Of a stretch of 64,000 nt of DNA, positions 1 through 19,368 are shown one piece after another. Location of the stretch: NCBI RefSeq assembly GCF_000829375.1, contig NZ_AP014624.1:2232001-2296000 (forward strand). The letters run 5' to 3'. The translations under genes were made by a program, and so were the position numbers. The notes below the pieces were generated by a model. It worked only from the letters and a program-made list of their open reading frames with translations, did no database searches and was not told the DNA's origin. Numbering within the stretch: the stretch's first letter is position 1; every line of letters starts with the position of its first letter. This DNA comes from Chryseobacterium sp. StRB126. Its GTDB lineage: Bacteria > Bacteroidota > Bacteroidia > Flavobacteriales > Weeksellaceae.

Positions 1-71
1 CATTCGGAAATGAGCTGTTTGAGGTTGTAGGTAAATGAATCATAATTGTCTACAAGCAGTATTTTTTTCAT
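1..71 (-). CDS. trpG: Anthranilate synthase component II (glutamine amidotransferase), 5' end only
   Basis: Only the first 23 codons lie in the window; the gene runs off the left edge. The product begins MKKILLVDNYDSFTYNLKQL, the hallmark start of TrpG/PabA-type amidotransferases, which release ammonia from glutamine for the partner chorismate enzyme. The ATG overlaps the stop of the upstream component I gene in an ATGA arrangement, the usual translational coupling of the two subunits. Its place at the end of a quinolone-like cluster suggests the role of Pseudomonas PhnB: a dedicated anthranilate supply. The Cys-His-Glu triad is outside the window and cannot be checked. Confidence 0.85.
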   Translation of the reverse strand, partial: MKKILLVDNYDSFTYNLKQLISE

Positions 72-1483
72 AAGGTATATGATGTAAATTCTTTTAACGT
101 GTTCAGAATTAAAGTGATTTTATTGTTTACTTCTTCCAACTCTTTTTGAGGGTCAGACGATATGACAACGCCGGCTCCGGCGCGGTAAGCCATCACTCCG
201 TTTTCGAATAAGGCACTTCTTATAAGAATACAGGTATTGATATCATTATTAAATCCTATCCAGCCAAGTAATCCTCCATAGTATGAACGACCGCTGCTTT
301 CTATATCATCAATAAGTTGTACCGCCTTGTATTTAGGCGCTCCGCTTAATGTTCCTGCGGGTAGAAACTCTTTAACCAGGCGGATCGTATTAAGCTCTGT
401 ATTTAGTTTTCCCTGCACCTGGCTTACCATATGGATAACATTATTATAATGTTCTATGGTTTTCAGTTTACTGATCTGTACATCATTTGCATATCTGCTG
501 AGGTCGTTCCTTGCCAAATCAATCAGCATATTGTGTTCTGCATTTTCTTTAGGGTCTGCTAGCAGCTCTTTTTCCAGTAATGCATCTTTTTCTTCATGCA
601 TTGTTTTTTTGTAGGTTCCTGCGATGGGTTTTACTATTGCCAAATCATCTGAAGAACTGAAATGAGTCTCCGGTGATGCTCCTGCTATTGTATAGTTTTC
701 TTCATCCAGAAAGAAATAATACTGGGCATTGTTGTTTTTCAGCTTCACAAAAAATGTCCACGGATCGCCTGCATAGTTTCTGGAAAATCTTCGGGAAACC
801 ACCAGCTGGAATACATTTCCTATCTGGCAGTGATGTTTTGCTTTATTCACTTTTTCTAAAAACTCTTCCTCTGTACAGTCTTTTTCTTCTGTGTTGGATA
901 CTGAAAATCCTTTTAATCCGGTATTTAAGGTGTATTTCAGCTGTTCTTTCATTTCCGTGATCTCATCGTTTTCTCCATTATAATAGTTATTGATGCAGAC
1001 AACCTGTGAGAGGGTGGTATTGAAAACATAAATATATCGGTACAGAGAAAATTTAAAGAGTGGTAACTGGCTGCTTTCTCTTTCCTCAGCGTATTTTTTC
1101 AGAGAAATATTTTCTATAAGCTGTATAGAATCATAGCTGCTGAAACCTAAAAGACCGTTATACTGATGAGAAATATTTTCCGGGGTATTTTTTTTCTGCC
1201 ATTCGGCTGTTTTACCCCAAAAATTAAGCTCGTCAGTTTCTATTGTTTCTGTCTTTTCACCTGATCTGTATTGAAGCTCATTCATATTATTTGACTGTAA
1301 TGAGGCAATAGATTCTGCCGCAATAAAAACCAGCTTGTGATTGTCATTGTTTACAGCTTCAGAAACTTCAAACCAAATAGAACTTGTGGCTTTCTGCCTC
1401 AGAGAGTTATAAAAACTCTTCATATCAAAGTTTTCGGGGTAATCTGAACTTATATGAGAAGAAAAGATCTTAGTTTCTTTCAT
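68..1483 (-). CDS. trpE: Anthranilate synthase component I (chorismate-binding enzyme)
   Basis: 471 residues, a normal TrpE length. The conserved C-terminal chorismate-binding half is clear: GASPETHF, KPIAGT, LPAGTLSGAPKYKAVQLID, then YRAGAGVV and a closing ELEEVNNK. With the amidotransferase it should convert chorismate and glutamine to anthranilate. PabB or isochorismate synthase are alternatives, but the SGAPK block and the coupled trpG-like gene favour anthranilate. It starts 4 bases after the thioesterase stop, so it belongs to the cluster transcript and not to a trp operon; no trpD, C, F, B or A genes are seen. The inferred role is a pathway-dedicated anthranilate source, as phnAB serves pqsABCDE. 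Confidence 0.85.
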   Translation of the reverse strand: MKETKIFSSHISSDYPENFDMKSFYNSLRQKATSSIWFEVSEAVNNDNHKLVFIAAESIASLQSNNMNELQYRSGEKTETIETDELNFWGKTAEWQKKNTPENISHQYNGLLGFSSYDSIQLIENISLKKYAEERESSQLPLFKFSLYRYIYVFNTTLSQVVCINNYYNGENDEITEMKEQLKYTLNTGLKGFSVSNTEEKDCTEEEFLEKVNKAKHHCQIGNVFQLVVSRRFSRNYAGDPWTFFVKLKNNNAQYYFFLDEENYTIAGASPETHFSSSDDLAIVKPIAGTYKKTMHEEKDALLEKELLADPKENAEHNMLIDLARNDLSRYANDVQISKLKTIEHYNNVIHMVSQVQGKLNTELNTIRLVKEFLPAGTLSGAPKYKAVQLIDDIESSGRSYYGGLLGWIGFNNDINTCILIRSALFENGVMAYRAGAGVVISSDPQKELEEVNNKITLILNTLKEFTSYTL

Positions 1484-1487
1484 GGAT

Positions 1488-2216
1488 TTAGTGTATTAAA
1501 TCATTTATTATTTTACTTAGCAGGGCAGAGGTCTGCTTCGGATACTGGAACATAAAAAAATGTCCTCCCTCTACAGGAAAATAGCTTGTAGTATTGGACG
1601 TATGACGGTTCCAATCTTTATAGCAGTCTTTATTATTATACAGCTCATCATTTTCTGCTATGATTACTGCCAAAGGAGTTTCGATGATAATGGACGGCCA
1701 GTCTTCAACAGGATTTTCTTCTAAAAGTGCTGTATCTTTTTCCATAATCTCTATCCGTTTCTGCTGTACTCTCTGAAAAATCGGGGCATTTTTGCTTCTT
1801 TCATATTTCGTTGGAAGAATATCAAGCAGCAGGGCATTCCGCTTTTCTCTCGGCATCGGCAGTTCTGCAGACTGAAACAGGGGAGCCCGCATCCCTGAAA
1901 CGATCAATCCTTTTGGCGTATAATCGTTCTGTAGATTAAATAAGATAAGAAGGCCTAAAACAGCTCCCATACTATGTCCCCACAATATGAAAGGTTGGTC
2001 TTTACTTATCAGCCTGCTTCTGATTTTATCCGAAATATCTTCTATAGTTTCTTCTAATGTTGAATGAAAAGGTTCCGTACTTCTCATTCCCCTTCCCGGC
2101 AGTTCTACATAATGTACCTCCACATCTTCCGTATTCAGTACATTGGCTACATTAGACATTGAGGAAGATGAGCCGCCCGCATAAGGAATACAGAACAATA
2201 GTGTTTTGTATTCCAT
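1488..2216 (-). CDS. Type II thioesterase (alpha/beta hydrolase)
   Basis: 242 residues. Typical type II thioesterase features are FCIPYAGGSS near the start (oxyanion region), LPGRGMR, the nucleophile elbow GHSMGA with Ser82, and a late His in EGGHFFMF. Such enzymes remove stalled or misloaded acyl groups from carrier proteins and sometimes release product. The start codon abuts the stop of the dehydratase gene. In Pseudomonas, TesB can assist PqsE at the 2-aminobenzoylacetyl thioester, so a second thioesterase here could edit the carrier protein or help at that step; which one is inference. Confidence 0.85.
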   Translation of the reverse strand: MEYKTLLFCIPYAGGSSSSMSNVANVLNTEDVEVHYVELPGRGMRSTEPFHSTLEETIEDISDKIRSRLISKDQPFILWGHSMGAVLGLLILFNLQNDYTPKGLIVSGMRAPLFQSAELPMPREKRNALLLDILPTKYERSKNAPIFQRVQQKRIEIMEKDTALLEENPVEDWPSIIIETPLAVIIAENDELYNNKDCYKDWNRHTSNTTSYFPVEGGHFFMFQYPKQTSALLSKIINDLIH

Positions 2217-2699
2217 CTAAACAGATAATTTACTTTTATCTATAAACATTACGGTTACTTTTCCTTTTGCACAGACAGAACCTTCTGCCGATGCTTTTAC
2301 ATAAATAGAGCAGGCGGGCCCTTTTCTCCAGTCTATACTTACCTCCAGCTGCAGCAAGCATCCTGGTAATACCGACTTTAGAAAATTAATCTGGACATTT
2401 CCTAAAACCCCTATTATGGGTCTTTCTGTAGGAGGAAGAGGCCCTCCTTTTTCCCATTCCAGATCATCTAAAGCCAGCATGAGCGATGAAGCCTGTGCTA
2501 AAGCTTCCGTAATAAGAACTCCGGGCATAATGGGGAAATCGGGAAAATGACCTGTGAAATAAGGCTCACCCATAGAGACGGCTTTTACAGCAGTAAGTTC
2601 TTTTCCGGGAATATAACCCGTCACTTTATCTATCAGAAGAAACGGATGTCTGTATTTTAAAATTTGAGTGATCTGATAGGATTCTAATAATGCTTCCAT
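2217..2699 (-). CDS. FabZ/FabA-like 3-hydroxyacyl-ACP dehydratase
   Basis: 160 residues with a hot-dog fold signature: RHPFLLIDKV near residue 18, then the catalytic block GHFPDFPIMPGVLITEALAQ with His51 and Glu65. It should dehydrate 3-hydroxyacyl-ACP to trans-2-enoyl-ACP. It abuts the thioesterase gene and the CLF gene with no spacer. With no enoyl reductase in the cluster, the double bonds would stay and build a conjugated polyene (inference). Confidence 0.9.
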   Translation of the reverse strand: MEALLESYQITQILKYRHPFLLIDKVTGYIPGKELTAVKAVSMGEPYFTGHFPDFPIMPGVLITEALAQASSLMLALDDLEWEKGGPLPPTERPIIGVLGNVQINFLKSVLPGCLLQLEVSIDWRKGPACSIYVKASAEGSVCAKGKVTVMFIDKSKLSV

Positions 2700-3746
2700 T
2701 TATTTTGTTTTTTCTATTATGCTGAGAATTACAGTTCCTGCCTTGTCTGCTGAAAGGACCAGAATGTTTTCCTGATCTGTTTTGTGAATGCTTTTTCCTT
2801 CGAATACCGAAACAGCATAGGCTATTCCCAGCATACCTCCGGCGTTGTCATTATCTCCAAAAAGGTTTTCAGGATAAATGACAGATGTGCTCAGCCCATT
2901 TTTTCTTAACACTTCTTCAAAAATAGTTTCATCAATTACCGAAGTGCCTCCGGAAAAAATAATGGTATCAAAACTGAATAGTGCTGCCATACCTGAAATA
3001 TTCTGATACAGAAATGCTTCTATTGGCAGCCCCTCAGTATGGGTTTCAGAATGTATCTTTTTTATTGTGGCTAAAGGTTTTCTGCCTGCTTCAGATAAAG
3101 TTTCCCTACGTTCTAAAACCATTGCAATTCCAAGTTCGGTGGAGACTGGTCTGTGCAGGGTTTCATTTCCCCTGCGGATAGACTCCTGATATTCATTTCG
3201 GACTTCTGTAGAGGCAATAACTCCGTAATCTGTGATTCCCTGTTTTAGATGGAGGGAAGCAATATCTAAAGCCTGAAGGCTTCCTGCCATCCCTGCACAT
3301 ACACTGAAATTGGGACCTTTTATTCCTGCCTGAATGGCCATCTGACTGGCTGCTGCATTGGCAATGGTGCTTGGAGCTTTCATTGGGCTTACACGGTCCG
3401 GACCTTGATTTTTTGCAGTTAAATCAAAGATAAAACAGTCTTCAAGGTTGGAAAGTTCAGTGCCGTCATAAAGCCCGATTCTTTCAGGAGCTTCATTGAT
3501 TATCGAACTTAAACTCCTGCTATGTATGGCATGAAATGCTGCATTACAGAACAACAATGTTGCTTTGTTAAGGAATCTCTGTCCTTTTGGTTTTAAAAAC
3601 TTCTGGGGATCATGATCTTCAATGATTAAAGCTTTCGTTTCCGATTCTTTTCGGAAGAAATAATTGTCAATCTCCGTTCCGTATGGACTATTGAAGCCTA
3701 TTATGGAAATTACTATATCGTTATTTGAAATGTTATTTGCTATCAT
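2700..3746 (-). CDS. Chain-length factor (KS-beta-like, no catalytic residues)
   Basis: 348 residues, a thiolase fold related to the adjacent ketosynthase but shorter. At the nucleophile elbow the ketosynthase has TACAAGN; here the aligned stretch is VCAGMAGSL, which puts Met153 at the Cys position. The HGTGT and GHxMGA histidine motifs are also absent (GGTSV and NDNAGGMLG occur instead). Catalytically dead partners of this kind pair with a KS and set chain length in type II systems, including ApeC-like proteins of aryl polyene clusters. It overlaps the KS gene by 14 bases, consistent with a heterodimer made in equal amounts. Confidence 0.8.
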   Translation of the reverse strand: MIANNISNNDIVISIIGFNSPYGTEIDNYFFRKESETKALIIEDHDPQKFLKPKGQRFLNKATLLFCNAAFHAIHSRSLSSIINEAPERIGLYDGTELSNLEDCFIFDLTAKNQGPDRVSPMKAPSTIANAAASQMAIQAGIKGPNFSVCAGMAGSLQALDIASLHLKQGITDYGVIASTEVRNEYQESIRRGNETLHRPVSTELGIAMVLERRETLSEAGRKPLATIKKIHSETHTEGLPIEAFLYQNISGMAALFSFDTIIFSGGTSVIDETIFEEVLRKNGLSTSVIYPENLFGDNDNAGGMLGIAYAVSVFEGKSIHKTDQENILVLSADKAGTVILSIIEKTK

Positions 3747-4974
3747 ATTTACTGAATATTACGCTGCATATATTTCCGCCAAAAGCGAAAGAATTACTAA
3801 GAACATGATCTACTTTATTTTCGATTTCTGAGGATGGCTGGATATGAAAATGAGTATTGAAAGCTTCATCAATTTTTTCTGTATTGCGGTTTCTGGGAAC
3901 TTTTTGATGATGTAGGGAAAGAGTGGCCGTTACTGCTTCCAATGCACTGGCTGCTCCCATGCAGTGTCCTAACATGGATTTGATTCCATTGACATATAAA
4001 GAATCTATTTCTTCTCCGAAAACATTGCGCATCGCATTTACCTCATGGGAATCATTGGCTTTTGTTCCTGTTCCGTGGGCGCTTACATAAGTGATGTTCT
4101 CTCTATCAATATTGCTTGATTTTATTGCATTGTTCATAGACAGGGTAGCACCGGAACCTTCCGGATCAGGGGCGGTAGGATCATAAGCATCACAGGCTAA
4201 GCCGTATCCTTTGATTTCGCCATATATTTTAGCTCCTCTTGCTAATGCATGTTCCAGTTCTTCCAATACTAAAACAGCAGCTCCTTCTCCTACAATCATT
4301 CCGTTCCTGTTCTGATCAAAAGGTTTGCAGTTGTCTTTTGACATGGCTCCCAATCTGTAAAAAACGGTGTAGCAGGACCGTGTAAAAGGGTCAGCACCTC
4401 CTGCAATAATCAGGGAAGATCTGCCTTCACGAATCATAGAATAGGCGGTGCCGATAGCATAATTTCCTGCTGCACAGGCTGTAGGAATTACCATATTTGT
4501 TCCGCCGAGATTGTAATATTTTGCTATACTGGCACTTAATTCAACCGGTCTAAAATAAGTAAGTGTTTTTGCAGCTTTAGAGGAAAGGTATTCATGTTTC
4601 ATTTCCAGATTCCACTGATCTACAATTCTTTCTACAATATCCTGGTTGCCGTTTGTAGTACCCAGAATAACTCCGTAATTATTTTTTTTAGTGAATTTTT
4701 CAAAACCGGCATCTTTCAGACCCATGTCTATCGCAGCAGCAGCATAAGTAACGGCTTTACCATAAGGCTTAAAATGCTCCAGCAATTCAGTATTCTTATA
4801 ATCTTTTTCCAAGTCTACTTCAGCAGCGCGGGTAACTCCTTTATAGTTGGAGGGCTCCAGTTTTGTAAGGTCTCCGACTCCTGATTCTCCATTCAAGATT
4901 TTTTCCCAAAAGGCTCCTTTTTCACAGGCTAAAGGGCTTACTACACCCATCCCTGTAATTACGATTCTTTTCAT
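3733..4974 (-). CDS. Beta-ketoacyl-ACP synthase (FabF-type KS)
   Basis: 413 residues from the start MKRIVITGMGVVSPLAC at 4974; a 27-residue in-frame extension upstream overlaps fabG and looks unused. The full Cys-His-His set is present: Cys167 in PTACAAGN, His300 in SAHGTGT, His337 in MLGHCMGAAS. It should condense malonyl-ACP with the growing chain. With the following chain-length factor it forms the KS/CLF pair of a type II polyketide or aryl-polyene-like system. Being separate from the three KASIII-like genes, it probably makes the side chain and not the quinolone ring. Confidence 0.88.
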   Translation of the reverse strand: MKRIVITGMGVVSPLACEKGAFWEKILNGESGVGDLTKLEPSNYKGVTRAAEVDLEKDYKNTELLEHFKPYGKAVTYAAAAIDMGLKDAGFEKFTKKNNYGVILGTTNGNQDIVERIVDQWNLEMKHEYLSSKAAKTLTYFRPVELSASIAKYYNLGGTNMVIPTACAAGNYAIGTAYSMIREGRSSLIIAGGADPFTRSCYTVFYRLGAMSKDNCKPFDQNRNGMIVGEGAAVLVLEELEHALARGAKIYGEIKGYGLACDAYDPTAPDPEGSGATLSMNNAIKSSNIDRENITYVSAHGTGTKANDSHEVNAMRNVFGEEIDSLYVNGIKSMLGHCMGAASALEAVTATLSLHHQKVPRNRNTEKIDEAFNTHFHIQPSSEIENKVDHVLSNSFAFGGNICSVIFSKYDSK

Positions 4975-4988
4975 ATGTTTTGTGTTTT

Positions 4989-5744
4989 TTATAAAGTTAA
5001 TCCTCCATCGATGATGAATGTCTGCCCAGTGATATAGCTGCTTTTGTCCGAGCACAGAAAGGTTACCAGCTCAGCAACTTCTTCCGTTTTTCCCATCCTT
5101 TTCATGGGGATCATCTGATCTATTTTCTTTTTGTCCTGTTCATTCATTTTGGCTACCATTTCGGTATCAATAAATCCCGGGGCAACAGCATTTACCTGTA
5201 AGTTGAATTTTGCAAATTCCAGAGCAAGTGTTTTGGTTAAAGAGATAACAGCTGCTTTAGTTGCTCCGTAATTGGCCTGTCCCACTGCTCCTCTTACACC
5301 TGAAACAGATGATATATTGATGATTTTTGAATTTTTCTTTCGGATGAAAGATCTTATCACTGCTTTTGTGAGGTAATAGGTTCCATTCAGGTTGGTTTCT
5401 AGTACATTGGTCCACATATCGGTGGTCATGCTGAAAAAAGGGGCGTCCATTGTGACTCCTGCATTGTTTACCAAGCCGTATAGCGGACCTAATGCAGATT
5501 TTTCAATTTCGGCGATTAAAGATTTTGATTGTTCTTCATTTTTTATGTCAGCCTGATAAAGCATAGTCTTACCCGGAAATTCAGCTGAAAGTTTGTCCAA
5601 AAAAGCTTCTGCTATTTCTTTCCCATGATTATAGGTAAATGATACGGATGCTCCCGATGAAAGTAGCTGCTGAACAATAGCTCTTCCGATTCCTCTTCCG
5701 CCTCCTGTCACTAAAAAATGTTTGTCTGATAAATCTATTTGCAT
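4989..5744 (-). CDS. fabG: 3-oxoacyl-ACP reductase, FabG type
   Basis: 251-residue short-chain dehydrogenase. The NADPH-binding motif GGGRGIGRA lies at about residues 15-23, then NNAG, the catalytic Ser in NISSVSG, YGATKAA with Tyr and Lys, and the C-terminal [12 protein letters not shown] typical of FabG. It should reduce 3-ketoacyl-ACP to 3-hydroxyacyl-ACP for the dehydratase. It lies between the FAD monooxygenase and KS genes with short spacers. KS/CLF, KR and DH together are the minimum set for a polyene chain. Confidence 0.9.
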
Positions 5745-5752
5745 AATTATTT

Positions 5753-6907
5753 TTAAATCTTATTGAGTATGGAAAGGTCTCTGCTGCTGGTCTGTATTTT
5801 GGAATTAAGGCTGTTCATAAAGTCTTCTGCACTTCCGAAACTGCCTGCCAGGCGATGACCATAAGCTAGAACTTTATTGTTAAGTTCAAAACGTTGCTCC
5901 TGATAGCTTGCCAGTGCTTCTTCCAAAGAAATTTCACTGTTAAAATATTTTGAAAGCCAGATGAAGAGTTCTCCTGTATCTTCGATAGCCAGGTTCATTC
6001 CCTGTCCCGTAATGGGATGGATGGAATGGGCTGCATTTCCCAAAAGAAGTATCCTTCCTTTAAAGTATTGTTCAGAATGCATTCTGCATAAGGGAAAAGT
6101 GAGGAAATTGTCCAGTGAATTGATCTGGTTTAACATGTCATCACTTTGGGTAACAAATGTTTTCAGTCGGTTGATCAAAGTTTCTTTGTTTCCGGATTCT
6201 TTCAGGTTTTTCCCTTCTTCCATATTAAATCCTAAAACACATCGGGCTTCTGTATTGTTGATCGGGTAGAAATAGGCGAGCCCTCCGTTTTTGTCTACAT
6301 ACAATCGGTTGAGCTCTTCTACACTTGATGTAATAGGGTATTTGTTGAAATACATCACATGATCGTAATAGTCGAAATGGGCTTTTATTCCCGCATATTC
6401 TCTTACAATGGATTTGGTTCCGTCCGCTCCGATAAGGATATTGCTGAAAATCTCTTCTCCTGAATTAAGAGTTACATAGACCCCGTTTTCCACTTCATTA
6501 ATTTTTGAAACGGATTGATTGACCAAAAGTTCTATGGTTTTGATGGCCTGAATTTTATCATAAATCGTTTCCAGTAAAACACTGTATGGACAAACCATGA
6601 AATATCCTCTTTCGTTTTCTGCCTTATAATTGATGTGATCGACCTGAATGCCATTATGAAAAACACTGAGCTGATCTCTCACTCTGCATTCCTTATTCAT
6701 AAGTTCCTGTAGCAGTCCGTGTTTTTCAAGGACATTGATTCCGGAAGGCTTTAAAATATCGGCACCATTCATATTGACTTTAGCATTTTTTTCTAAAATC
6801 AGTATTTTTTTTCCTTGTGAACCAAGCAGCCAGGCCAGGAAAATACCGGCAATTCCTGCTCCTACAATGCAAACGTCATATTCTGTATATTTTGGATTTT
6901 GATTCAT
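5753..6907 (-). CDS. FAD-dependent aromatic monooxygenase (PqsH/PqsL/UbiH-like)
   Basis: 384 residues. The FAD-binding [19 protein letters not shown] and the following acidic LILEK start a Rossmann fold; [11 protein letters not shown] and the FAD-ribityl motif [18 protein letters not shown] place it in the group A flavin hydroxylases. Pseudomonas PqsH (382 residues) hydroxylates the quinolone at C3, and PqsL acts on the amino group of 2-aminobenzoylacetate to give N-oxides; both are plausible models. It overlaps the MBL hydrolase gene by 4 bases (ATGA), which mildly favours a PqsL-like role because the PqsE product is the PqsL substrate. The exact reaction cannot be read from sequence. Confidence 0.82.
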
Positions 6908-7782
6908 ACGAATGATTCTGTTTTTAAATGAGAGATTAATAGTCCTATACTTTTTCTGTATACTTTATCCGGAATGAAGGAATGATCCATCACTTTATAT
7001 TTTTTGCATACGTGATCCACCAATTCTTCTTCTGATAAATAATCTTTACGTAGGGCAACAAACTCTATCAATTCGTTACACCCAAGAAGGCTGCAGGCAG
7101 GGGCAGATAGGGCCTCCACACTTGTAAGGATACCATTGTGTCCTAAAGCAACGGTCTCGGCACACAAATCTCCCAATCTATTGATGCTGTCTATAAATTG
7201 TCTTACATGATCAAAAGCCAATGGAAACCATTTTTTTGTATTGATAATTTCCCCTAAAGCATCCGATACAAACAAAATGTCTTTTTCTTTATAATGAATA
7301 CTCACAGAACATGGACTATGGCCCGGAGTATAGATTACTTCCCAGATTCCAGATTCCGTTTCTATTTGTTCTTTATCTTTCAAAGTGATGAAAGGAATCT
7401 GTTGTAAGTCCGCCGGAAATTTTTTAATCTCTTTATCTGAGATCAGGGCATTCAGCTGACGAATCCTTTTTACATATTTTTCATTACGGAAGTTTTTCAC
7501 CGCATGTTCCGAGGCATATAGTTTTACATGCTTCAGATAAGGATAAAGAGATTCTATAGCTCCGCAATGGTCATAATGGGAGTGTGTAATAAACCAGTGT
7601 CTGACTAATGACAGATCAGAAACATGTTTTTTCAATTGTGCCAGCAGAGCTTTGGCATCCCGGGTTAATCCTCCTTCTACCAGTATGTATTCCTGATTTT
7701 CTTTTACCAGATAAACCGGGTTGGATATTGTTCCCAAGATGGCTAAAGAGTTGTTTATATTTCCTGTTTTATTGATCCACAT
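6904..7782 (-). CDS. Metallo-beta-lactamase-fold thioesterase (PqsE-like)
   Basis: 292 residues. The dinuclear metal motif is complete: THSHYDHCG (His67, His69, Asp71, His72), then PGHSPCS, SDALG and LGHNG supplying later ligands. Pseudomonas PqsE (301 residues) has this fold and hydrolyses 2-aminobenzoylacetyl-CoA to 2-aminobenzoylacetate. Position next to a PqsD-like KASIII and coupling to the FAD monooxygenase support that role. A generic MBL hydrolase is the alternative; the assignment comes mostly from context. Confidence 0.78.
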   Translation of the reverse strand: MWINKTGNINNSLAILGTISNPVYLVKENQEYILVEGGLTRDAKALLAQLKKHVSDLSLVRHWFITHSHYDHCGAIESLYPYLKHVKLYASEHAVKNFRNEKYVKRIRQLNALISDKEIKKFPADLQQIPFITLKDKEQIETESGIWEVIYTPGHSPCSVSIHYKEKDILFVSDALGEIINTKKWFPLAFDHVRQFIDSINRLGDLCAETVALGHNGILTSVEALSAPACSLLGCNELIEFVALRKDYLSEEELVDHVCKKYKVMDHSFIPDKVYRKSIGLLISHLKTESFV

Positions 7783-7793
7783 GGTATTATGAA

Positions 7794-8786
7794 TTAGAAT
7801 TTATATAAAACACTTCCCCATGTCGCTCCGGAGCCATATCCTACTATAAGTCCCAGCTTTCCTTCTCTTTCTTCCGGAGGAGTATTCTCCATATATTCAC
7901 TCAAAGTGATGGGTAAAGAACCGGAAGCAATATTTCCATATTTATGTACATTGATCTGTACCTTATTTCTTGGAATTCCCAGATTATTTATCACTGCATC
8001 CAAAATTCTCATATTGGGCTGGTGGGGAATAATAACATCTATATCTTCCATGGAAAGATTGTGCTTTTTCAATGTCTGTACTGTTACTTCAGTGAATTTC
8101 TCTACTGCATGTTTAAACATGGCTTTGCCGTTCATCCGGAAATAGGAACATTTGCTCTCATCTCCGCTGAAGGTTTTGCCTGATGTACCGGGACTTTCTG
8201 TCCAAAGCAGTTCAAAATAACTTCCATCAGCGTGTATTGCAGCATCCAGAATTCCTTTGTTCTGATCTTCTGAAGCACTTAGCACAACAGCTCCGGCGCC
8301 GTCACCAAGTAATATAGAGAGGTTTCTGCCCTCATCAGAATAGTCCATTCTTTTTGATAAAGCTTCTCCGCAGCAGACTAATATATTCTGATGAGTTCCG
8401 GTTGCTATAAATTGTCTTGCGATGTCCATTCCATAAATAAGCCCACTACACTGCGCCCGGATATCAAATACGGGAATTGTATTTTTCAGAGAAAGCATTG
8501 GCTGAATCAGGCAGGCCTGAGACGGATCATGGTAATCAGGACTCAATGTATTTACAATCAGCATATCGATATCTTCCGGTAAGAGATTGGCTTTTTCAAT
8601 TGCTTTTTTGCAGGCTTCTACCATTAATACGCCTGTGCTTTCATTTTCAGAAATATGTTGTCTGGTGAGCACGCCTGTACGGGTTTCTATGAATTCTTCC
8701 GTGGTATTCATCCATTCAACAATTGTTTTGTTGTCTATGGTTGCAGAGGGCAGAGCATGACCAAATCCGGATATGACAGTATTCAT
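7794..8786 (-). CDS. KASIII/FabH-like condensing enzyme with full triad (PqsD-like)
   Basis: 330 residues. The Cys-His-Asn triad is intact: Cys113 in RAQCSGLIYG, His255 in PHQPNMR, Asn285 in KYGNIASGS. Pseudomonas PqsD has the same triad at nearly the same positions and condenses anthraniloyl-CoA with a malonyl thioester to 2-aminobenzoylacetyl-CoA. The alternative is a starter-unit KASIII for the polyene chain. Context (CoA ligase, MBL hydrolase and PqsBC-like pair in the same cluster) favours PqsD. The ATG overlaps the previous gene's stop in a TAATG arrangement. Confidence 0.82.
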   Translation of the reverse strand: MNTVISGFGHALPSATIDNKTIVEWMNTTEEFIETRTGVLTRQHISENESTGVLMVEACKKAIEKANLLPEDIDMLIVNTLSPDYHDPSQACLIQPMLSLKNTIPVFDIRAQCSGLIYGMDIARQFIATGTHQNILVCCGEALSKRMDYSDEGRNLSILLGDGAGAVVLSASEDQNKGILDAAIHADGSYFELLWTESPGTSGKTFSGDESKCSYFRMNGKAMFKHAVEKFTEVTVQTLKKHNLSMEDIDVIIPHQPNMRILDAVINNLGIPRNKVQINVHKYGNIASGSLPITLSEYMENTPPEEREGKLGLIVGYGSGATWGSVLYKF

Positions 8787-9811
8787 TAGTCGTAGTTTTT
8801 GTTCATTACATTATCTATATCCTCTGTTGCGGCAGATTTTTTTCTGAAATATTCTACAGCATCTTCCACATCTTTTTCAAATCTGTTGTCTCTCCATACT
8901 TTCATGTTTTCATCATCACTAGGATCGAAGATTCCAAGTTCCAGGAAGTATCTCATCAAGGGAGCCATAATTCTGGAATTGATTTTCTGACGGTTTTCAC
9001 TTTCCAACACGGCAGGAATCAGTTTTTTATAATCTCTGAATGCAGGATTCTGAAAGCCGACGCGGGAATACACTACAATACTACAGACAGACATATCAAG
9101 CATGCTTCTAAGCATTGGAGCTGTACTTTCCTGTGCTTCTTTCAAAAATTCAGGAACCATATCTATAAACTCACGGATCATATTTTTGCCCCATTCTATA
9201 TGTCTTGCTTCTTCTTTATGATGTTCTACCGCTACAGCTCTTGATAAGGGGGAAATTTCCTTGCTGTTGCAGTCTTCCATTGCATTGTTTTCTGCCAGCC
9301 ATTCAATAAGAATGGTAAGGTAGATGGCCTTTAAGGGAAATTCGGACATTGAGGCATTGTGGCTGTATATTTCTCTAAGGTTTAAAGGGCTCGGGAAGGG
9401 GGTAATCTGAAAATGGGCCATTGCCTTTTTGAAGACCATTGCATGCACTATTTCTTCTTTGCAGAAATGATGTATGTATTTTACGACTTCGGGAAATTTT
9501 TTAAGGGAGCCATGATTGACGATTTTCATATAGTATTCTGACACAAGGTTTTCGAATACGATGAAAGTGTACCACCATGAACCTGTTTCATAGACGGATA
9601 AAAGCCTTCTTTCTTCTTCTGTAGCAAGATCATAATAAGGTGTTCCGTAGATCGCAATATTTTCTCTTTTTTTCAGCCAGGCGCTTTCTATAGGTTCGTC
9701 CCAAGGATGATCCAGAAGGAGGCTCATCTGTTTTTTTTCGGAAGCTTTATTCAGTTTTTCTAGTAAGAGGGTAAACTTTGGGCTTAGTGTTTTTTTCTTT
9801 AGATTGCTCAT
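8786..9811 (-). CDS. AurF-like diiron N-oxygenase
   Basis: 341 residues from the start MSNLKKKTLSPKF at 9811; an upstream in-frame Met would overlap the previous gene far more. Two EExxH motifs about 80 residues apart (Glu119-Glu120-x-x-His123 and Glu200-Glu201-x-x-His204), with further helical Glu/His around them, are the pattern of a diiron carboxylate helical bundle of the AurF family. AurF oxidises p-aminobenzoate to p-nitrobenzoate through hydroxylamine and nitroso stages. Here the natural substrate would be an anthranilate-derived amine. The start overlaps the previous gene as ATGA. N-oxygenation is inference; other diiron oxygenations cannot be excluded. Confidence 0.78.
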   Translation of the reverse strand: MSNLKKKTLSPKFTLLLEKLNKASEKKQMSLLLDHPWDEPIESAWLKKRENIAIYGTPYYDLATEEERRLLSVYETGSWWYTFIVFENLVSEYYMKIVNHGSLKKFPEVVKYIHHFCKEEIVHAMVFKKAMAHFQITPFPSPLNLREIYSHNASMSEFPLKAIYLTILIEWLAENNAMEDCNSKEISPLSRAVAVEHHKEEARHIEWGKNMIREFIDMVPEFLKEAQESTAPMLRSMLDMSVCSIVVYSRVGFQNPAFRDYKKLIPAVLESENRQKINSRIMAPLMRYFLELGIFDPSDDENMKVWRDNRFEKDVEDAVEYFRKKSAATEDIDNVMNKNYD

Positions 9812-11301
9812 ATATTTTGTGTTTTTTCCATATTTAATAGTTTTCCTTGTGTAAATCCGAAACACATTGCGGTTTCATAGCCGGGACCTCCGGACCATGT
9901 GCTTACCAGTTTTACTTTGTCATTTGGGAAGTTGCTCAATAGCCCTAAATTGGTTTTTGGAAGCATTTTGTAGGCGAAAGCCGAACCTTTGGTAGCCAGT
10001 GTAAATTTGTAATTGGTCTTCGGAGTTGAAGATTCTGTATAGATCAGCTTGTCTTCTATCTGAGGAAAGGTTTTAAGAACTCTTTTGATCAGTTTTTCCT
10101 GAATTTTATCTTTTCTCTGATTATATTCTTCTTCGGACAGGTGGAACCAGCGGTCTCCGTGATCCAGAACTATAAGCTGGAGAATATAGCCGCCTTCCGG
10201 GTCTACCCGGTGATAGTTGCTGACACTCAGGGTAAAAAGGTCATAATACCGGTCGTTCTCAAAATCTTCTTCTGTAAAGTCATCACCCGTGTCGGACACC
10301 AAAAGGTATTCTGGTGAGCTAATTCCCAGTTCATTGGGTGGAACAGAAAGTACAGCAAATACACAAAAATGTCCCCATCCAACAGTAAAGTTTTCGAGAA
10401 CTTCTTTAAATTCCTGAGACTTTTCATCTTTTTTCAGCATTCTTACTACATCTTCGGGAGGGCAGGTCGCGATGACCCTTTTGGTCTTTACTATATTTTT
10501 CCGGGTGGTTACCAGCATATGGTCACCCATATCTTCCATCTCGTGCACCTGGTTTTTCTTCAAAAGAATTCCGCCGCGGTCTACAAATTCTTTTAACAGC
10601 AGATCCGAAATACGCTGTCCGGTTCCTTTCATAAATGCGGGGCCGCCATAGAACATGGCATAAAGGCAATGAAGAAAATAAAATGCATTGACTTCATTGG
10701 AAATGGAACCTGAATAAATAGCAATGGGACTGAGTACTTCTACAATGTCCGGTCCTTTGAAAATGGATTGAAAGTAATCACGGGCTGTAATTTTTGATAA
10801 GCCTCTGCTTTCTCTCAAAATATCCCTGTTTATGGTATATTCATTCATCAGTTTTCTAAAAAACATATAATGCTGATATCCGTGAGATTCTATATCCTGA
10901 AATAGTTTTTCTATTCCTGCCAATTCATCCGGGAAATGGGTAATGAGTGTTTTTTTTATGTCTTCCGGCTCAGAGGGAAGTTTGATGAATTGGTTTTTAT
11001 ACACTACTGTTCCAATTTCTTCATGCAATTCGAATTCGTCTAGTAATGACTGTAGTTCGAGTCTTTTAAGGGTATTCCATAGGTTTCCAACATTTTCTTT
11101 GAGTCCGCTTACTTTATGTTGGCTGCAGTCAAAAACAAATTTTCTTTTGTTCCGATAAAAATTGGTAGCATAACCTCCTACTTTATGATGGGCTTCGCTG
11201 ATGGCAACCGAGCTTCCTTCGGTAACTGCAGAAATACCGTACATAAGGCCACAAAGTCCTGCACCTATTACTAATTCATCGACTTCTAAATTTTCAATCA
11301 T
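9808..11301 (-). CDS. CrtI/CrtISO-like FAD-dependent oxidoreductase or isomerase
   Basis: 497 residues. The N-terminal dinucleotide motif VIGAGLCGLMYG is followed by the acidic SEAHHKVGGYATNF, and the C-terminal FAD block is GGPGYETAMCFGFTQGKLL. Both ends match the phytoene desaturase, carotenoid isomerase and retinol saturase superfamily. No carotenoid gene is present, so a conjugated polyene from the KS/CLF system is a reasonable substrate: desaturation or cis-trans isomerisation (inference). It is separated from the carrier protein gene by about 190 bases containing two hairpins. Confidence 0.78.
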   Translation of the reverse strand: MIENLEVDELVIGAGLCGLMYGISAVTEGSSVAISEAHHKVGGYATNFYRNKRKFVFDCSQHKVSGLKENVGNLWNTLKRLELQSLLDEFELHEEIGTVVYKNQFIKLPSEPEDIKKTLITHFPDELAGIEKLFQDIESHGYQHYMFFRKLMNEYTINRDILRESRGLSKITARDYFQSIFKGPDIVEVLSPIAIYSGSISNEVNAFYFLHCLYAMFYGGPAFMKGTGQRISDLLLKEFVDRGGILLKKNQVHEMEDMGDHMLVTTRKNIVKTKRVIATCPPEDVVRMLKKDEKSQEFKEVLENFTVGWGHFCVFAVLSVPPNELGISSPEYLLVSDTGDDFTEEDFENDRYYDLFTLSVSNYHRVDPEGGYILQLIVLDHGDRWFHLSEEEYNQRKDKIQEKLIKRVLKTFPQIEDKLIYTESSTPKTNYKFTLATKGSAFAYKMLPKTNLGLLSNFPNDKVKLVSTWSGGPGYETAMCFGFTQGKLLNMEKTQNI

Positions 11302-11343
11302 TATTTAGATTATTTTGTTTTAATTTTTCCAAAAGAAATAACC

Positions 11344-11363
11344 CTCACTTTTTTTTAAGTGAG
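11344..11363 (-). other. Short hairpin in the ACP-oxidoreductase spacer
   Basis: A perfect 7-base stem, CTCACTT and AAGTGAG, closes a 6-base T/A loop in the untranslated spacer upstream of the CrtI-like gene. Read on the minus strand it lies about 40 bases before that start codon. It may be an mRNA-stabilising or processing hairpin; no function is shown by sequence. Confidence 0.4.
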
Positions 11364-11442
11364 TATTTTTAATTACGGATGTCTGTTATGAACCAACATT
11401 AATGGGCTGTATTAATATTGGTAAAAAGTCAAAATCTATTAA

Positions 11443-11481
11443 AATCTTTGGGCCCGACACGCTGGTAAAAACCCAAAGATT
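11443..11481 (-). terminator. Leaky intrinsic terminator or attenuator after the ACP gene
   Basis: A perfect 10-base inverted repeat (AATCTTTGGG and CCCAAAGATT) with a loop of about 19 bases starts 13 bases beyond the ACP stop codon. On the minus strand it is followed by TTTTAAT. It divides the cluster into ligase-PqsBC-ACP and the rest, and could give more carrier protein than downstream enzymes. No promoter with a good TAnnTTTG match was found between it and the next gene, so read-through seems needed. Confidence 0.6.
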
Positions 11482-11494
11482 GTGTTTTGTATTC

Positions 11495-11740
11495 TTAAAC
11501 GGCCAATTCTTCTTCCAGAACGTCTACGATATCTTTCGGCGTCTTCATTTTGATCAGGATTCCTTCATCTAAGCTGATGTCGAATTCTCTTTCCAGCTCA
11601 ACCAAAACTTCCAATCCCATAAGAGAAGTAACCCCTATTTCATTTAACAGGTCTGTATCAGGTTTAATCATATTGATATCGCATTCTGCAATATCTGCTA
11701 AAATAGCATACACTTTGTTGAATAATTCTTGGTTTTCCAT
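11495..11740 (-). CDS. Acyl carrier protein
   Basis: 81 residues from the start MENQELFNKVY at 11740; a 29-residue upstream extension overlaps the previous gene and lacks family features. The phosphopantetheine site is GVTSLMGLEVL with Ser39 (the usual DSL is TSL here), followed by the acidic helix II typical of ACPs. It probably carries the KS/CLF-made chain. It is the only carrier protein gene in the visible cluster. It lies 13 bases after the PqsC-like gene. Confidence 0.9.
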   Translation of the reverse strand: MENQELFNKVYAILADIAECDINMIKPDTDLLNEIGVTSLMGLEVLVELEREFDISLDEGILIKMKTPKDIVDVLEEELAV

Positions 11741-11753
11741 TCTATTGTAATTT

Positions 11754-12788
11754 TTAATAGTTAATATTTTCTGTATTCCATACCTGTGCTCCAAAACCCC
11801 ATCCGATTCCTGCTCCGGCAAATACAACTGTATTATTGGGTTTTATTTTCCCGTTTTTTAATGCAAAGTAGAGGGTCATGGGGATTGAGGCAGAGCTCAG
11901 GCAACTGTATTTTTCTACGGTGGTTGTATATTTTTCTTTCTTTATTCCTATTCCCATTGCCCACATTCTGATAAGCATTTTTGATGGCTGATGGAAGACA
12001 AAATGATGTATATCTTCAAGAGATGCGTCTGCCTTTTCTAAAGCTTTAAAGACAACCTCAGGAACATTTTGAGGCACAAATGTCTGCATTTGAGTGGGGG
12101 CATCTTCTCCTAATGTAAAGTAAGGACGGATAAATTCTTTCCCGGGCTTATCTGCCGGGGTTTTCCATTGTAATGTTGCAATATCATTATAGGTGGGAAT
12201 GCTTTTATAGTGAGAAGAAACCAATTTTCCTTCTTTTTCTGATCTTCCAATGACTATTGCTGCCGCACCATCTCCAAAAAGGGTAGAAGAGGGTAAGGAG
12301 AAGTCTGCAATTTGCGTAAATGTTTCTGCGGAACAGATCAGAACGTTTTCGTACATTCCTGTTTTTATGTAATCAGATGCTATTTGTAGGGCTACCAGGA
12401 ATGATATGCATGCCTGGTTGACTTCCATAGTCATGGCTGAGTGTTTACAGTTCAGTTCTGTTTTTAAATACTCTGAAATTCCCGGGAAAATTCTGTCGTC
12501 TTCTTTATCAGACCAACCTGTAATGGTGCATGTGGTTCCTATGATAAGATCTATGTCCTGTGTAGAAAGACCTGCTTTTTCTATGGCTCCCAAAGATGCT
12601 TTTCTGGCAAGTTGAGAGCAGGATTCTCCTTTTTCTTTGTTTACCATATATCTTCCTTCCATTCCCCAATTTCTCCACCAGTTTTTTGGAAGATTGGGAA
12701 TTTCGGAAAACGGAGGCATATCATTGGTGTAATATGTCTCTGGAAGTCCTATGGCTACACTTTTTATTGAGGAGTTATATTTCATCAT
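11754..12788 (-). CDS. KASIII-like condensing enzyme, PqsC-like (Cys-His, no Asn)
   Basis: 344 residues. Cys127 in NQACISF and His266 in FHQPSKM are in the right places, but the KASIII asparagine motif YGNTSAAS reads YSCLSSAS, so Asn is replaced by Cys296. Pseudomonas PqsC (about 348 residues) likewise works with Cys129 and His269 and no Asn, loading octanoate and condensing it with 2-aminobenzoylacetate to form the quinolone ring. The gene overlaps the PqsB-like gene by 14 bases. The inference is the ring-forming condensing subunit accepting the polyene or fatty acyl chain. Confidence 0.85.
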   Translation of the reverse strand: MMKYNSSIKSVAIGLPETYYTNDMPPFSEIPNLPKNWWRNWGMEGRYMVNKEKGESCSQLARKASLGAIEKAGLSTQDIDLIIGTTCTITGWSDKEDDRIFPGISEYLKTELNCKHSAMTMEVNQACISFLVALQIASDYIKTGMYENVLICSAETFTQIADFSLPSSTLFGDGAAAIVIGRSEKEGKLVSSHYKSIPTYNDIATLQWKTPADKPGKEFIRPYFTLGEDAPTQMQTFVPQNVPEVVFKALEKADASLEDIHHFVFHQPSKMLIRMWAMGIGIKKEKYTTTVEKYSCLSSASIPMTLYFALKNGKIKPNNTVVFAGAGIGWGFGAQVWNTENINY

Positions 12789-13647
12789 TTGTAATTTTTA
12801 GAACCGAATATTGGGCAAGAAACGGATTGTATGATACTATGGTGAGGGGGTGTTCTTTTAGTTGTTTGTTTTCTTGTAAATGCCACGGAATAGTATTCAT
12901 GGCTAGTGTATTTTCAGTTTCATGGGATGAGAGGTGTTCTGAAAACCATTTTTCTGTGATCACCGGGGTCTGTTGTTCTTTTAGGTTTAAGAATATATTT
13001 TTCAATTCAGCGTTGATGGCTTTTACAAAGGATGAACTGTAATTCCAGTTCAGCCTGAAAATATTCTCTTTTTTCAGGGCTTCTTCATTTCCTGCATTGA
13101 AGCTTAAACCCGCTTTTGATATTTCTGAGGAAAGAATATGGATATTTTCCAGTTCTATTTTGTTGTTGCTTGATTTAAGGAGCAATGCATTTACCCCGTC
13201 AGGAATACAGAATCCGTTTTTATCATCCTTAAGGAAATCCGAGAATTTATTTGATTGAATGATCAATGCATATTTATGCTCAGAGTTTGATAAAAAATCA
13301 GATGCGATTTTAATCATATTTCCCAAGTCATTATGAAACATTTCGAAAACGAATGCATTTTTTGCATCCAAATGCTTTTGTACTTCATGCCCTACGCCGG
13401 GAGCTGAGGTATTTCTCAGAGCAGTAGTATCATATAGCGAAATAGAAGCATTGATAATTATGCCCAGCTCATCTTGCGAAACAGCATTTTTATCCAATAG
13501 CTGTCTGCTTAATTCTGAAGCCCAGGCGGATAAGGATTTTTCTTTTTCGATTTCGTAAATCTGGCATTGAAAGCCATTCTGCATTTTACCACGGATACCA
13601 ATGATATTCATTCCGGGAACTTCGCTTACTGCATCTATTATCTGCAT
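12775..13647 (-). CDS. Non-catalytic KASIII-like partner (PqsB-like)
   Basis: 290 residues, close to PqsB (283). It has a recognisable but degenerate thiolase-fold pattern: in place of the Cys motif stands FEMFHNDLGNMIKIA, and no HQxN or GNxS motif is visible. PqsB is the catalytically dead subunit that forms a heterodimer with PqsC. The order ligase, dead KAS, Cys-His KAS is the same as pqsA, pqsB, pqsC. Sequence similarity to PqsB itself cannot be measured here, so the name rests on size, order and lost active site. Confidence 0.75.
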   Translation of the reverse strand: MQIIDAVSEVPGMNIIGIRGKMQNGFQCQIYEIEKEKSLSAWASELSRQLLDKNAVSQDELGIIINASISLYDTTALRNTSAPGVGHEVQKHLDAKNAFVFEMFHNDLGNMIKIASDFLSNSEHKYALIIQSNKFSDFLKDDKNGFCIPDGVNALLLKSSNNKIELENIHILSSEISKAGLSFNAGNEEALKKENIFRLNWNYSSSFVKAINAELKNIFLNLKEQQTPVITEKWFSEHLSSHETENTLAMNTIPWHLQENKQLKEHPLTIVSYNPFLAQYSVLKITNDEI

Positions 13648-13669
13648 ATTTTAATATTAATAATTTGTG

Positions 13670-15244
13670 TTATGTTAAATTGTTTTCCAGTCTTTTTCTG
13701 ATTACTTTTCCATTGCTATTTCTGGTTAATTCTTTTATGAAATAAATTCTGGAAGGACGTTTATAGGAGGGGAAGTTTTCTGACAGTTTTTTTTGAATTT
13801 CTTCAGAAAGAACATCAGTGGCTATTCCGTTTTTTTCCACCAGATATAATACTGACCTGGCAAGATCATCATCATCCAGGTAATAGCTGATGGCACATTC
13901 ATTTACCTGCCTGAAGTTCTGTAATACATAATTTTCTATTTCAATAGGATTTACCCAGCGTCCATTTACCTTAAATAGATCGTCTTTTCTGCCGTGATAG
14001 ATGTAGGAGCCATCTTCATTTTGAGAACACAGGTCTCCTGAAAAATACCAACCTTCTTTATATTTTATTTTATTGGTTTCTTCTTTTTCCCAATATGAAC
14101 TGAGTGTGCTTTTTGGAGGATAAATGCACAGTTCACCTATCTCTCCATAGTTTTCTATTGTTTCATCGGGCGTGTCGATCCTGCTTATTTTTATATGGTA
14201 GCCGGGAACGGGAACACCTAGTGATGAATTTTTACTTTGTTCTTGTAATTGGTGGTTGCACATGAAAATATGCCCTATTTCTGTAGAGCCAATTCCGTTG
14301 ATAATCGTTTTATCAAATACTGTCTCCCATTCTCTGATGATGGATTCCGGAAGGGAAGAACCTGCGGATATAAATAATCTTATGCTATTGAACTCATTTT
14401 TTGAAAAGTTCTCGTGCTGATGAAGAATTTCCGCATATACTTTTGGGGTCCCAAATAAAATGGTGGGTTTATAAAGCCTTATGTTTTTTTTCAGATAATC
14501 AACTGTGAACCATTTTTCATCAATTATCACAGAAGCTCCTGTGAGCAACGGAAAAAACAGACTGTTTCCTAATCCGTAACCGAAAAACATCTTGGAAACG
14601 GATAATATGATGTCTTCTTTAGCAATTTCCAATGTCTTTTGTGCAAATAGCTCTGTATTTGTAAGCATAGTATGGTGCCTGTGCTGTACTGCCTTTGGAT
14701 TACCGGTAGTTCCGGAAGTATATTGCCAGAAAGCAACCGGATTATTTTCTGCATATTCAAATTCCAATTCCAAAGAAGCGGCAGGGAAATTTTGAGGAGA
14801 TAAAAATTTCTGCAAATAATTTATTGAACCATATTCTTTTACTGAAGGATTATTTACTATGATGCAATCATTTATAATGTGGTATGAGCTATGTATAGTA
14901 TGATAAAGCCTAAGATATTGGTGATTATCTATAATAACCCCTGTTGCTTTAGAGTCCAGTAAGATATATTCTAATTCCGAATCCTGAATTAAAGGGTTAA
15001 GGGGAACGGGAATGCACCCGATGGATATTAAAGATAAGAATGAATAAATAAATTCCGGTGAATCATTCATAATCAGAATCACCCTATCTCCACAACCAAA
15101 TTTTCCTGTAGATCTTAGGCTGGTGGCAACGGTTATTATTTTTTCGGCTATTTCTTTTCCCGATAGGCTGTTAAGATCATAGAGGATTTGGTTTTCATTA
15201 TTATATAACAATAAATTTTTAATGATATTCCTTGATGTATTCAT
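13670..15244 (-). CDS. Aryl-CoA ligase, anthranilate/benzoate type (PqsA-like)
   Basis: 524 residues, against 517 for PqsA. ANL-superfamily motifs occur in order: QYTSGTTGNPKAVQHRHH (P-loop, about residue 178), the GYGLGNSLFFPLLTG block of benzoate-CoA ligases, GIGSTEIGHIFMCN, YFSGDLC, the hinge GRKDDLFKVNGRWVNP, and the C-terminal lysine in NSNGKVIRKRL. It should activate anthranilate with ATP and CoA (or load it onto a carrier). It is the first gene of the cluster, so the main promoter must lie in the divergent region above 15244. Confidence 0.85.
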   Translation of the reverse strand: MNTSRNIIKNLLLYNNENQILYDLNSLSGKEIAEKIITVATSLRSTGKFGCGDRVILIMNDSPEFIYSFLSLISIGCIPVPLNPLIQDSELEYILLDSKATGVIIDNHQYLRLYHTIHSSYHIINDCIIVNNPSVKEYGSINYLQKFLSPQNFPAASLELEFEYAENNPVAFWQYTSGTTGNPKAVQHRHHTMLTNTELFAQKTLEIAKEDIILSVSKMFFGYGLGNSLFFPLLTGASVIIDEKWFTVDYLKKNIRLYKPTILFGTPKVYAEILHQHENFSKNEFNSIRLFISAGSSLPESIIREWETVFDKTIINGIGSTEIGHIFMCNHQLQEQSKNSSLGVPVPGYHIKISRIDTPDETIENYGEIGELCIYPPKSTLSSYWEKEETNKIKYKEGWYFSGDLCSQNEDGSYIYHGRKDDLFKVNGRWVNPIEIENYVLQNFRQVNECAISYYLDDDDLARSVLYLVEKNGIATDVLSEEIQKKLSENFPSYKRPSRIYFIKELTRNSNGKVIRKRLENNLT

Positions 15245-17148: not shown

Positions 17149-17154
17149 GAAAAT

Positions 17155-17472
17155 ATGAAAAACACACCTGATTATAAAAAAATTTACGATGATATGTTAA
17201 TTATAAAACATCCAGAAAGAAAAGAAGAATTTCAACAATTATTATCTAAATCTGATTTTTCAGCACTTGACATTATTGAAATAAACAAAGTACTTTTTAG
17301 CGGAGGTTTTGAAGAAAGCGCAAGATTTAATCAAAGACATCGTTCCTATGATCCTTCAACCATTATCCACATATTAGAATATCAGAAAAAGAATAAATTG
17401 AATAATTCTCAACTTGCCAAACACTTTAAATTAAGCAGAAATACAGTGACAAAATGGAAAAGTCATTTTTAA
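17155..17472 (+). CDS. Small HTH protein, HTH-2 family copy a
   Basis: 105 residues, paired with the preceding gene. It opens with a helical segment (PDYKKIYDDML), then the signature FNQRHRSYDPSTI and a C-terminal HTH, LNNSQLAKHFKLSRNTVTKWK. An intact relative is at 38574 and a frameshifted one at 53525. The C-terminal HTH resembles transposase-type DNA-binding helices. The repeated pairing of HTH-1 and HTH-2 implies that they act together, perhaps as a heteromeric regulator of the neighbouring secreted-protein operon (inference). Confidence 0.75.
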   Translation: MKNTPDYKKIYDDMLIIKHPERKEEFQQLLSKSDFSALDIIEINKVLFSGGFEESARFNQRHRSYDPSTIIHILEYQKKNKLNNSQLAKHFKLSRNTVTKWKSHF

Positions 17473-18498: not shown

Positions 18499-18508
18499 AA
18501 GATAGATT

Positions 18509-19357: not shown

Positions 19358-19368
19358 AAAGTATACCA

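Follow-up and report, generated by a model that had tools for sequence, protein, structure and literature searches.

Why should a member of the Bacteroidota carry, in one run of genes, the enzymes of the Pseudomonas aeruginosa quinolone pathway together with a synthase for an acyl chain? The question is raised by a 64,000-nucleotide stretch of Chryseobacterium sp. StRB126, hereafter the window (G000:C1:2232001-2296000 of a one-contig, 5.5-Mb genome). Coordinates are counted within the window, negative ones lying beyond its start. The cluster is on the minus strand, with a PqsA-type gene at 15244 first and a trpG-type gene ending at -498 last. We propose, with a probability of about 0.7, that it would encode a pathway dedicated to 2-polyenyl-4(1H)-quinolones and probably also to the corresponding N-oxides. 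We establish here the gene set, its homologies, the active-site states, the conserved gene order, and the persistence of a pair of putative tailoring genes without PqsB to PqsE. The cluster and its continuation comprise the following genes (KASIII, β-ketoacyl-acyl carrier protein synthase III; ORF, open reading frame).

13670..15244, minus strand: putative PqsA-type anthranilate-CoA ligase (272 bits to P. aeruginosa PqsA; FFGYGxGNSLFFP stretch)
12775..13647, minus strand: PqsB-type inactive KASIII (best PDB match PqsB, 5dwz_B; no catalytic Cys)
11754..12788, minus strand: PqsC-type KASIII with Cys-His and no Asn (221 bits to PqsC; tree group 100/100)
11495..11740, minus strand: acyl carrier protein, ACP (PF00550, 49 bits; likely ATG start 11740, ORF listed to 11827)
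9808..11301, minus strand: carotenoid-desaturase/isomerase-like FAD oxidoreductase (Sat)
8786..9811, minus strand: AurF-like diiron oxygenase (PF11583; likely start 9811, ORF listed to 9865)
7794..8786, minus strand: PqsD-type KASIII with Cys-His-Asn (359 bits to PqsD)
6904..7782, minus strand: PqsE-type metallo-hydrolase (117 bits to PqsE)
5753..6907, minus strand: PqsL-type FAD monooxygenase (253 bits to 2x3n)
4989..5744, minus strand: ketoreductase, KR (NCBIfam FabG model NF009466)
3733..4974, minus strand: ketosynthase, KS (FabF-type, Cys-His-His; likely ATG start 4974, ORF listed to 5055)
2700..3746, minus strand: chain-length factor, CLF, the inactive KS partner (N-terminal ketoacyl-synt domain only)
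2217..2699, minus strand: FabZ-type dehydratase, DH (PF07977)
1488..2216, minus strand: thioesterase-like hydrolase, TE (PF00975)
68..1483, minus strand: anthranilate synthase component I, PhnA/TrpE type (TIGR00564)
-498 to 71 (1..71 in the window; L009:17502-18071), minus strand: anthranilate synthase component II, PhnB/TrpG type (37% identical to PhnB of P. aeruginosa)
-2153 to -924 (L009:15847-17076): CCP_MauG di-haem cytochrome c peroxidase, which follows the trpG-type gene together with a DUF3995 gene

The initial annotation had recognised types of pqsA to pqsE, pqsH/L and anthranilate synthase, with their order and active-site states, all of which phmmer searches and residue alignments bore out. 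It had placed phnAB in the window; component I does lie inside, but its phnB/trpG partner is mostly outside. It had also seen ACP, KS, CLF, KR, DH and TE genes among the pqs genes, which stands, but had left out the AurF-like (8786-9811) and desaturase-like (9808-11301) genes.

How close are the quinolone enzymes to their namesakes? Proteins were scored by phmmer against the PDB, and reference Pqs and Hmq operons were fetched and scored separately. The PqsD-type protein reaches 359 bits with PqsD and 230 with the next protein; the corresponding scores are 221 and 114 for the PqsC type, 117 and 41 for the PqsE type, and 44 (5dwz_B, about 19% identity) and 23 for the PqsB type. The FAD monooxygenase scores 253 bits with 2x3n/6sw2, against 88 for the next protein; 2x3n is presumably PqsL and, judging from this best match and the pqs context, the enzyme is of PqsL type. 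Among PDB chains the ligase reaches 249 bits with a benzoate-CoA ligase, 235 with an anthranilate-CoA ligase and 208 with a truncated PqsA chain (407 aa); scored alone, full-length P. aeruginosa PqsA gives 272 bits, and the two proteins have the FFGYGxGNSLFFP pocket stretch in common. Among the reference proteins, HmqC and HmqE slightly outscore PqsC and PqsE; for A, B and D it is the Pqs proteins that score above their Hmq counterparts.

The active sites agree with these assignments. In the residue alignments of PqsB to PqsE, which cover ten clusters and leave out that of Photobacterium (see below), PqsD keeps Cys-His-Asn (10/10), PqsC keeps Cys and His with the Asn replaced (10/10), PqsB has no catalytic Cys in any of the ten, as in P. 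aeruginosa and B. stagnalis, and PqsE retains eight site residues, including the metal site, throughout. Component I of the anthranilate synthase finds TIGR00564 as its best NCBIfam model, at 333 bits and under the cut-off of 518. Since the genome holds a second trpE-type gene elsewhere, 39% identical to that of the cluster, the cluster copy is probably dedicated to the pathway. A second FAD monooxygenase family, 23-25% identical to the PqsL-type protein of the window, was seen near five clusters (F. hercynium, C. phosphatilyticum, G711, G712 and Photobacterium); the F. hercynium member has 6-hydroxynicotinate 3-monooxygenase as its best PDB match.

We then asked with which KASIII proteins these enzymes group. 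A first tree of 54 rows, one of them the very long branch of own_L008 (a KS and no KASIII), gathered the PqsC type into a single group (88/90 over 13 cluster-type rows, 96/100 once six references are included) and did not unite the PqsD-type cluster rows. In a second tree of 37 rows, from which own_L007, own_L008 and 16 other rows were dropped and to which the flexirubin protein DarB was added, 15 D-type rows including known PqsD form one group (99/100) and 13 C-type rows form one with PqsC (100/100). Both trees carry a program warning of long branches. The groups stand apart from this genome's FabH-type proteins and from DarB; as regards flexirubin enzymes, the question that the initial annotation had raised about this grouping is answered in favour of PqsC and PqsD. 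Outside the clusters, PqsD-like proteins 56-59% identical to that of the window occur in Chitinophaga (P0063, P0072) and Pseudofulvibacter (P0066), and Chryseobacterium nematophagum has PqsC-, PqsD- and AurF-like proteins of the cluster type (P0006, P0042, P0176, P0179), named as such by the protein search.

The remaining enzymes form a chain-building synthase. Highly reducing type II polyketide synthases (PKS) include the aryl polyene, ishigamide and cinnamoyl lipid types, and their whole set is present here: active KS, inactive CLF partner, KR, DH and free ACP. The KS is FabF-type, with Cys-His-His kept in 7/7 aligned proteins; its best PDB match is 9s5h_B (326 bits, next 247), and 6kxd, which we take to be the ishigamide KS, is among the better ones (237 bits). 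The CLF lacks both catalytic His in 16/16 and has no Cys in register in any of them, with a Cys one place off in Hymenobacter and Arcicella. The KR is over the cut-off of NF009466 (244 against 222), and the DH reaches 111 bits with the fabZ model, below its cut-off. No enoyl reductase was recognised in the cluster by NCBIfam, yet the top Pfam match of the KR, PF13561, is titled enoyl-ACP reductase; we take PF13561 to be a broad short-chain dehydrogenase/reductase model. The desaturase-like flavoprotein might, moreover, work in either direction.

Is this arrangement peculiar to one strain? A PqsC profile scan of an 84,980-species collection returned 31 loci, the first 11 of which were mapped, the other 20 being 18-28% matches. 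The whole core is present in all 11, that is, in Chryseobacterium jejuense, C. lathyri, C. panacisoli, C. pennae and C. phosphatilyticum, and in Flavobacterium hercynium, Hymenobacter rubripertinctus, Arcicella aurantiaca, two gammaproteobacterial metagenome-assembled genomes and Cellvibrio sp. OA-2007. C. jejuense, C. lathyri and C. panacisoli hold the nearest relatives of the cluster among named species, with cluster proteins 94-100% identical. Adding G668 and G688 (both of the same genus), the window and Photobacterium sp. GJ3, we compared 15 loci, all of which keep the order A, B, C, Sat, AurF, D, E, KR, KS, CLF, DH, down to 36% PqsC identity. As this order is the same in two phyla, Bacteroidota and Gammaproteobacteria, the cluster is not a product of chance. 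It is sparsely distributed: PqsC-type proteins were found in 8/173 genomes of the genus, PqsB-type ones in 4/197 of a family sample, and AurF-like ones in 1/395 of a phylum sample (the window's own) and in 15/369 of a gammaproteobacterial sample at E 1e-5, two of these strong (E < 1e-80, both already known) and 13 weak. The Photobacterium cluster lies on pGJ3-1, a 1.69-Mb replicon typed as non-mobilizable and unannotated in the collection.

Accessory genes accompany this core. Eleven distinct clusters were mapped whole (ten plus that of Photobacterium). Seven of them have the DUF3995 gene (in two pieces in G668) and three the peroxidase gene, the two together continuing the block in three Chryseobacterium quinolone clusters out of the four that were mapped whole. 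A small gene for an SCP2-type lipid carrier, identified by Pfam in two cases and by likeness in the rest, lies between the AurF-like and PqsD genes in six of the eleven (L022:14878-15231, L024:13825-14157, and in G710, G712, Hymenobacter and Photobacterium). An MMPL-type exporter gene, identified by Pfam in Arcicella, comes next in the clusters of Arcicella, Hymenobacter and Cellvibrio.

A natural control that separates the chemistry of the chain from that of the quinolone is offered by a paralogue in the same genome. At a distance of 1.1 Mb (L056:12983-20000 and L057:1-1385; G000:C1:3330983-3339385) we found a stand-alone copy of the chain half, with ACP, desaturase-like, AurF-like, KR, KS, CLF, DH, TE and di-haem peroxidase genes. 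Across the genus, the AurF-like protein occurs in 12/173 genomes and at 14 places, eight with PqsC and six stand-alone, the latter in this genome and five others, where the nine genes keep the same order (6/6) and TE follows DH (6/6). Nothing in the stretches read around the six copies matched PqsB to PqsE, PqsL or trpEG; in G665 a 23% ligase match lies within a 1,262-aa frame 3.5 kb past the peroxidase. Four genomes have the stand-alone type with no PqsC match (G626, G195, G665 and G136, G665 being 89% complete). The di-haem peroxidase, which follows all six copies as well as three Chryseobacterium quinolone clusters, perhaps serves in protection or polyene oxidation. Two TAA were counted for the second AurF-like copy, and we considered whether it is defunct; this was rejected, since an ATG closely following them opens a frame of 338 aa.

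The stand-alone type nests within the quinolone type. A tree of six joined proteins from 16 clusters, rooted on gammaproteobacteria, makes the stand-alone group (100) the sister of the group that contains the window and leaves the remaining quinolone clusters outside both. In the KS tree, rooted on the genome's other KSs and with a program warning of long branches at the root, the stand-alone rows fall inside two starred quinolone-cluster groups (99/96, 100/99); their own group has a support of 87/95 and its exact sister is not fixed. Given this nesting, the stand-alone type probably lost its pqs genes.

What, then, do the AurF-like and desaturase-like proteins act on? Both are present in every locus compared, and their genes adjoin in all of them and overlap in several. 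The desaturase-like protein found no match in a PDB sequence search. The AurF-like protein matches PF11583 at 85 bits (cut-off 29.6); seven ligand-type residues, which by AurF numbering we take to be the AurF metal ligands, are invariant in 38/38, and Foldseek places its fold nearest AurF and CmlI (E 0.004-0.008). Such features would fit an N-oxygenase that acts on anthranilate or 2-aminobenzoylacetate, in the way that AurF and CmlI act on arylamines, and feeds PqsBC with the product, and the five loci with no PqsL in its place do have the AurF-like protein. We nonetheless consider this role rather unlikely: ten of the 15 loci have both proteins, the gene stays beside that of the desaturase-like protein throughout, and the six stand-alone copies keep the AurF-like protein at 81-82% identity with no PqsB to PqsE or trp genes. 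The retention of the pair in such surroundings points to both proteins serving the chain and not anthranilate, which is our chief addition to the reading of the initial annotation. In one gammaproteobacterial cluster, flavodoxin and LysR-type regulator genes precede PqsA (L024:7046-7567 and L024:4187-5140), with similar ORFs in Cellvibrio; the flavodoxin may supply electrons to the diiron protein.

A broader reading can be put forward tentatively, at a little short of even odds: the desaturase-like and AurF-like pair would carry out an unrecorded tailoring of polyenes, and the synthase family would have been born with the quinolone pathway, crossing between Bacteroidota and Gammaproteobacteria, before Chryseobacterium shed the quinolone genes to gain a second, free-standing polyene. 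If this were true, the quinolone type would make oxidised polyenyl quinolones, a coloured, respiration-blocking class that is not yet known.

From the genes we infer each reaction, the product and that its tail is a polyene; the polyenyl-quinolone proposal of the initial annotation is supported with additions. On the model of the Pqs pathway, anthranilate would come from the anthranilate synthase of the cluster, PqsA would convert it to anthraniloyl-CoA, PqsD would add malonyl-CoA and PqsE would free 2-aminobenzoylacetate, which PqsL could N-hydroxylate. In parallel, KS/CLF, KR and DH would build an unreduced chain on the cluster's ACP, and the desaturase-like and AurF-like proteins would isomerise, desaturate or oxygenate it. 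PqsBC would then join the ACP-bound chain to 2-aminobenzoylacetate or its N-hydroxy form, and the ring would close.

Several observations weigh against this pathway. The best PDB match of the ligase is a benzoate-CoA ligase, and the sequence support for PqsB is weak (44 bits). For the AurF-like protein, the PDB sequence search returned no match and Foldseek none at E < 0.001, and its VIA match to CmlI was tied with ribonucleotide reductase R2 chains. Not all genes are constant either: ten of the 15 loci have PqsL in its place and five lack it there, and, in the clusters mapped whole, TE follows DH in five and is missing in six (Hymenobacter has a 24% TE match before PqsA), as trpEG is present in five and missing in six, absences that count for less where contigs end near the cluster. 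N-oxidation and a local supply of anthranilate would thus not be universal. Finally, the three gammaproteobacterial clusters in the 37-row tree have a PqsD that falls with that of P. aeruginosa (100/97) and apart from the Bacteroidota clusters, which means that the cluster was not passed on as a single block of genes; their PqsC leans to the Bacteroidota ones (88/84, unstarred). Canonical and merged clusters have probably exchanged genes to some extent.

The tail could also be saturated, if an enoyl reductase of fatty acid synthesis acted in trans on the KS/CLF/KR/DH chain and ordinary 2-alkyl-quinolones were formed. Such a housekeeping enzyme need not sit in the cluster, the tails of known products are for the most part simple, whether saturated or unsaturated, and "polyene" is not a word of the available part of a 2020 review (PMC7731028). 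The fatty acid pool could, however, give a saturated chain with neither KS/CLF nor a desaturase-like partner, and the presence of both in every locus fits an unreduced chain, which makes this outcome improbable.

Far less probable is an aurachin-like logic, in which the type II synthase would extend an anthraniloyl starter directly and PqsBC would be used otherwise. Precedents exist, aurachins being made from anthraniloyl-CoA and two malonyl-CoA (PMC12012761, available in part) and a type II PKS with anthranilate priming being cited among the reference titles of PMC12664062. This logic is unneeded here, PqsD, PqsE and PqsC having the correct residues in 10/10, and neither trp nor PqsD genes accompany the stand-alone synthases.

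That two unrelated pathways merely lie side by side, or that a flexirubin cluster was misread, is scarcely credible: flexirubin-type KS, KR, DH and ACP do resemble those of the cluster, and the FlxB model gives the KR 237 bits (under its cut-off of 340), but genes of both halves are interleaved in all 15 loci and in two phyla, and a flexirubin origin is rejected by the KASIII tree, in which C and D do not group with DarB, by the genome's sole DarB match (E <= 1e-20, over its cut-off), which lies outside the cluster at 5.29 Mb, and by the KSs near it, only 29-34% identical.

Around the cluster, two small ORFs lie upstream (16705-17472), with helix-turn-helix-looking ends and no match in Pfam or NCBIfam. 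Farther on (17590-20280) are three tandem ORFs of 282-303 aa, related-looking and likely secreted.

The polyenyl quinolone pathway proposed here would widen a class so far described from few hosts. In the available parts of the sources, genome mining in 2025 gives four producing genera, all proteobacterial (Savchenko et al., PMC12012761), and the 2020 review adds an Alteromonas and an Arthrobacter (PMC7731028); these parts name no Bacteroidota producer and no cluster with its own chain synthase. Among the matches listed in a search of titles and abstract starts of open-licence PMC papers, there was no pqs-type cluster of Bacteroidota and no polyenyl quinolone cluster, in line with the novelty that had first been suggested; as MIBiG and most subscription journals lay outside the search, this novelty is provisional. 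A pqs pathway with a built-in synthase, in Bacteroidota and Gammaproteobacteria, would also make the length and unsaturation of the tail accessible to genetics. According to the part available of PMC11513363, hmqD-dependent quinolones inhibit Bacteroidota, Chryseobacterium included, which respire with naphthoquinones; a Chryseobacterium producer would therefore need self-protection.

Among the closest known systems, pqsABCDE-phnAB plus pqsL of P. aeruginosa has the same enzymes, the same active-site states and an anthranilate synthase attached to the operon. The present cluster differs in its Bacteroidota host, in having ACP, desaturase-like, AurF-like, KR, KS, CLF and DH genes inside the operon, and in containing its pqsL-type gene, with no second monooxygenase in the window's cluster. 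The hmqABCDE(L)FG systems of Burkholderia and Chitinivorax likewise have homologues of PqsB, C, D and E; they carry HmqF and HmqG where the window's cluster has a type II synthase, and, in the part available of Savchenko et al. 2025 (PMC12012761), pqsL is a member of the cluster in no genus but Chitinivorax. The aurachin synthase also combines anthranilate with a type II PKS, which builds the ring and not the tail (same source). With the arylamine oxygenases AurF and CmlI, the AurF-like protein shares the Pfam family, the metal-ligand pattern and the nearest folds found by Foldseek, but it has a desaturase-like partner in each locus and persists with no trp or PqsD gene. Lastly, highly reducing type II PKS have the same KS with inactive CLF, KR, DH and free ACP; the window's KS is nearer to 9s5h_B (326 bits) than to 6kxd (237 bits), and the chain made here would go to PqsBC.

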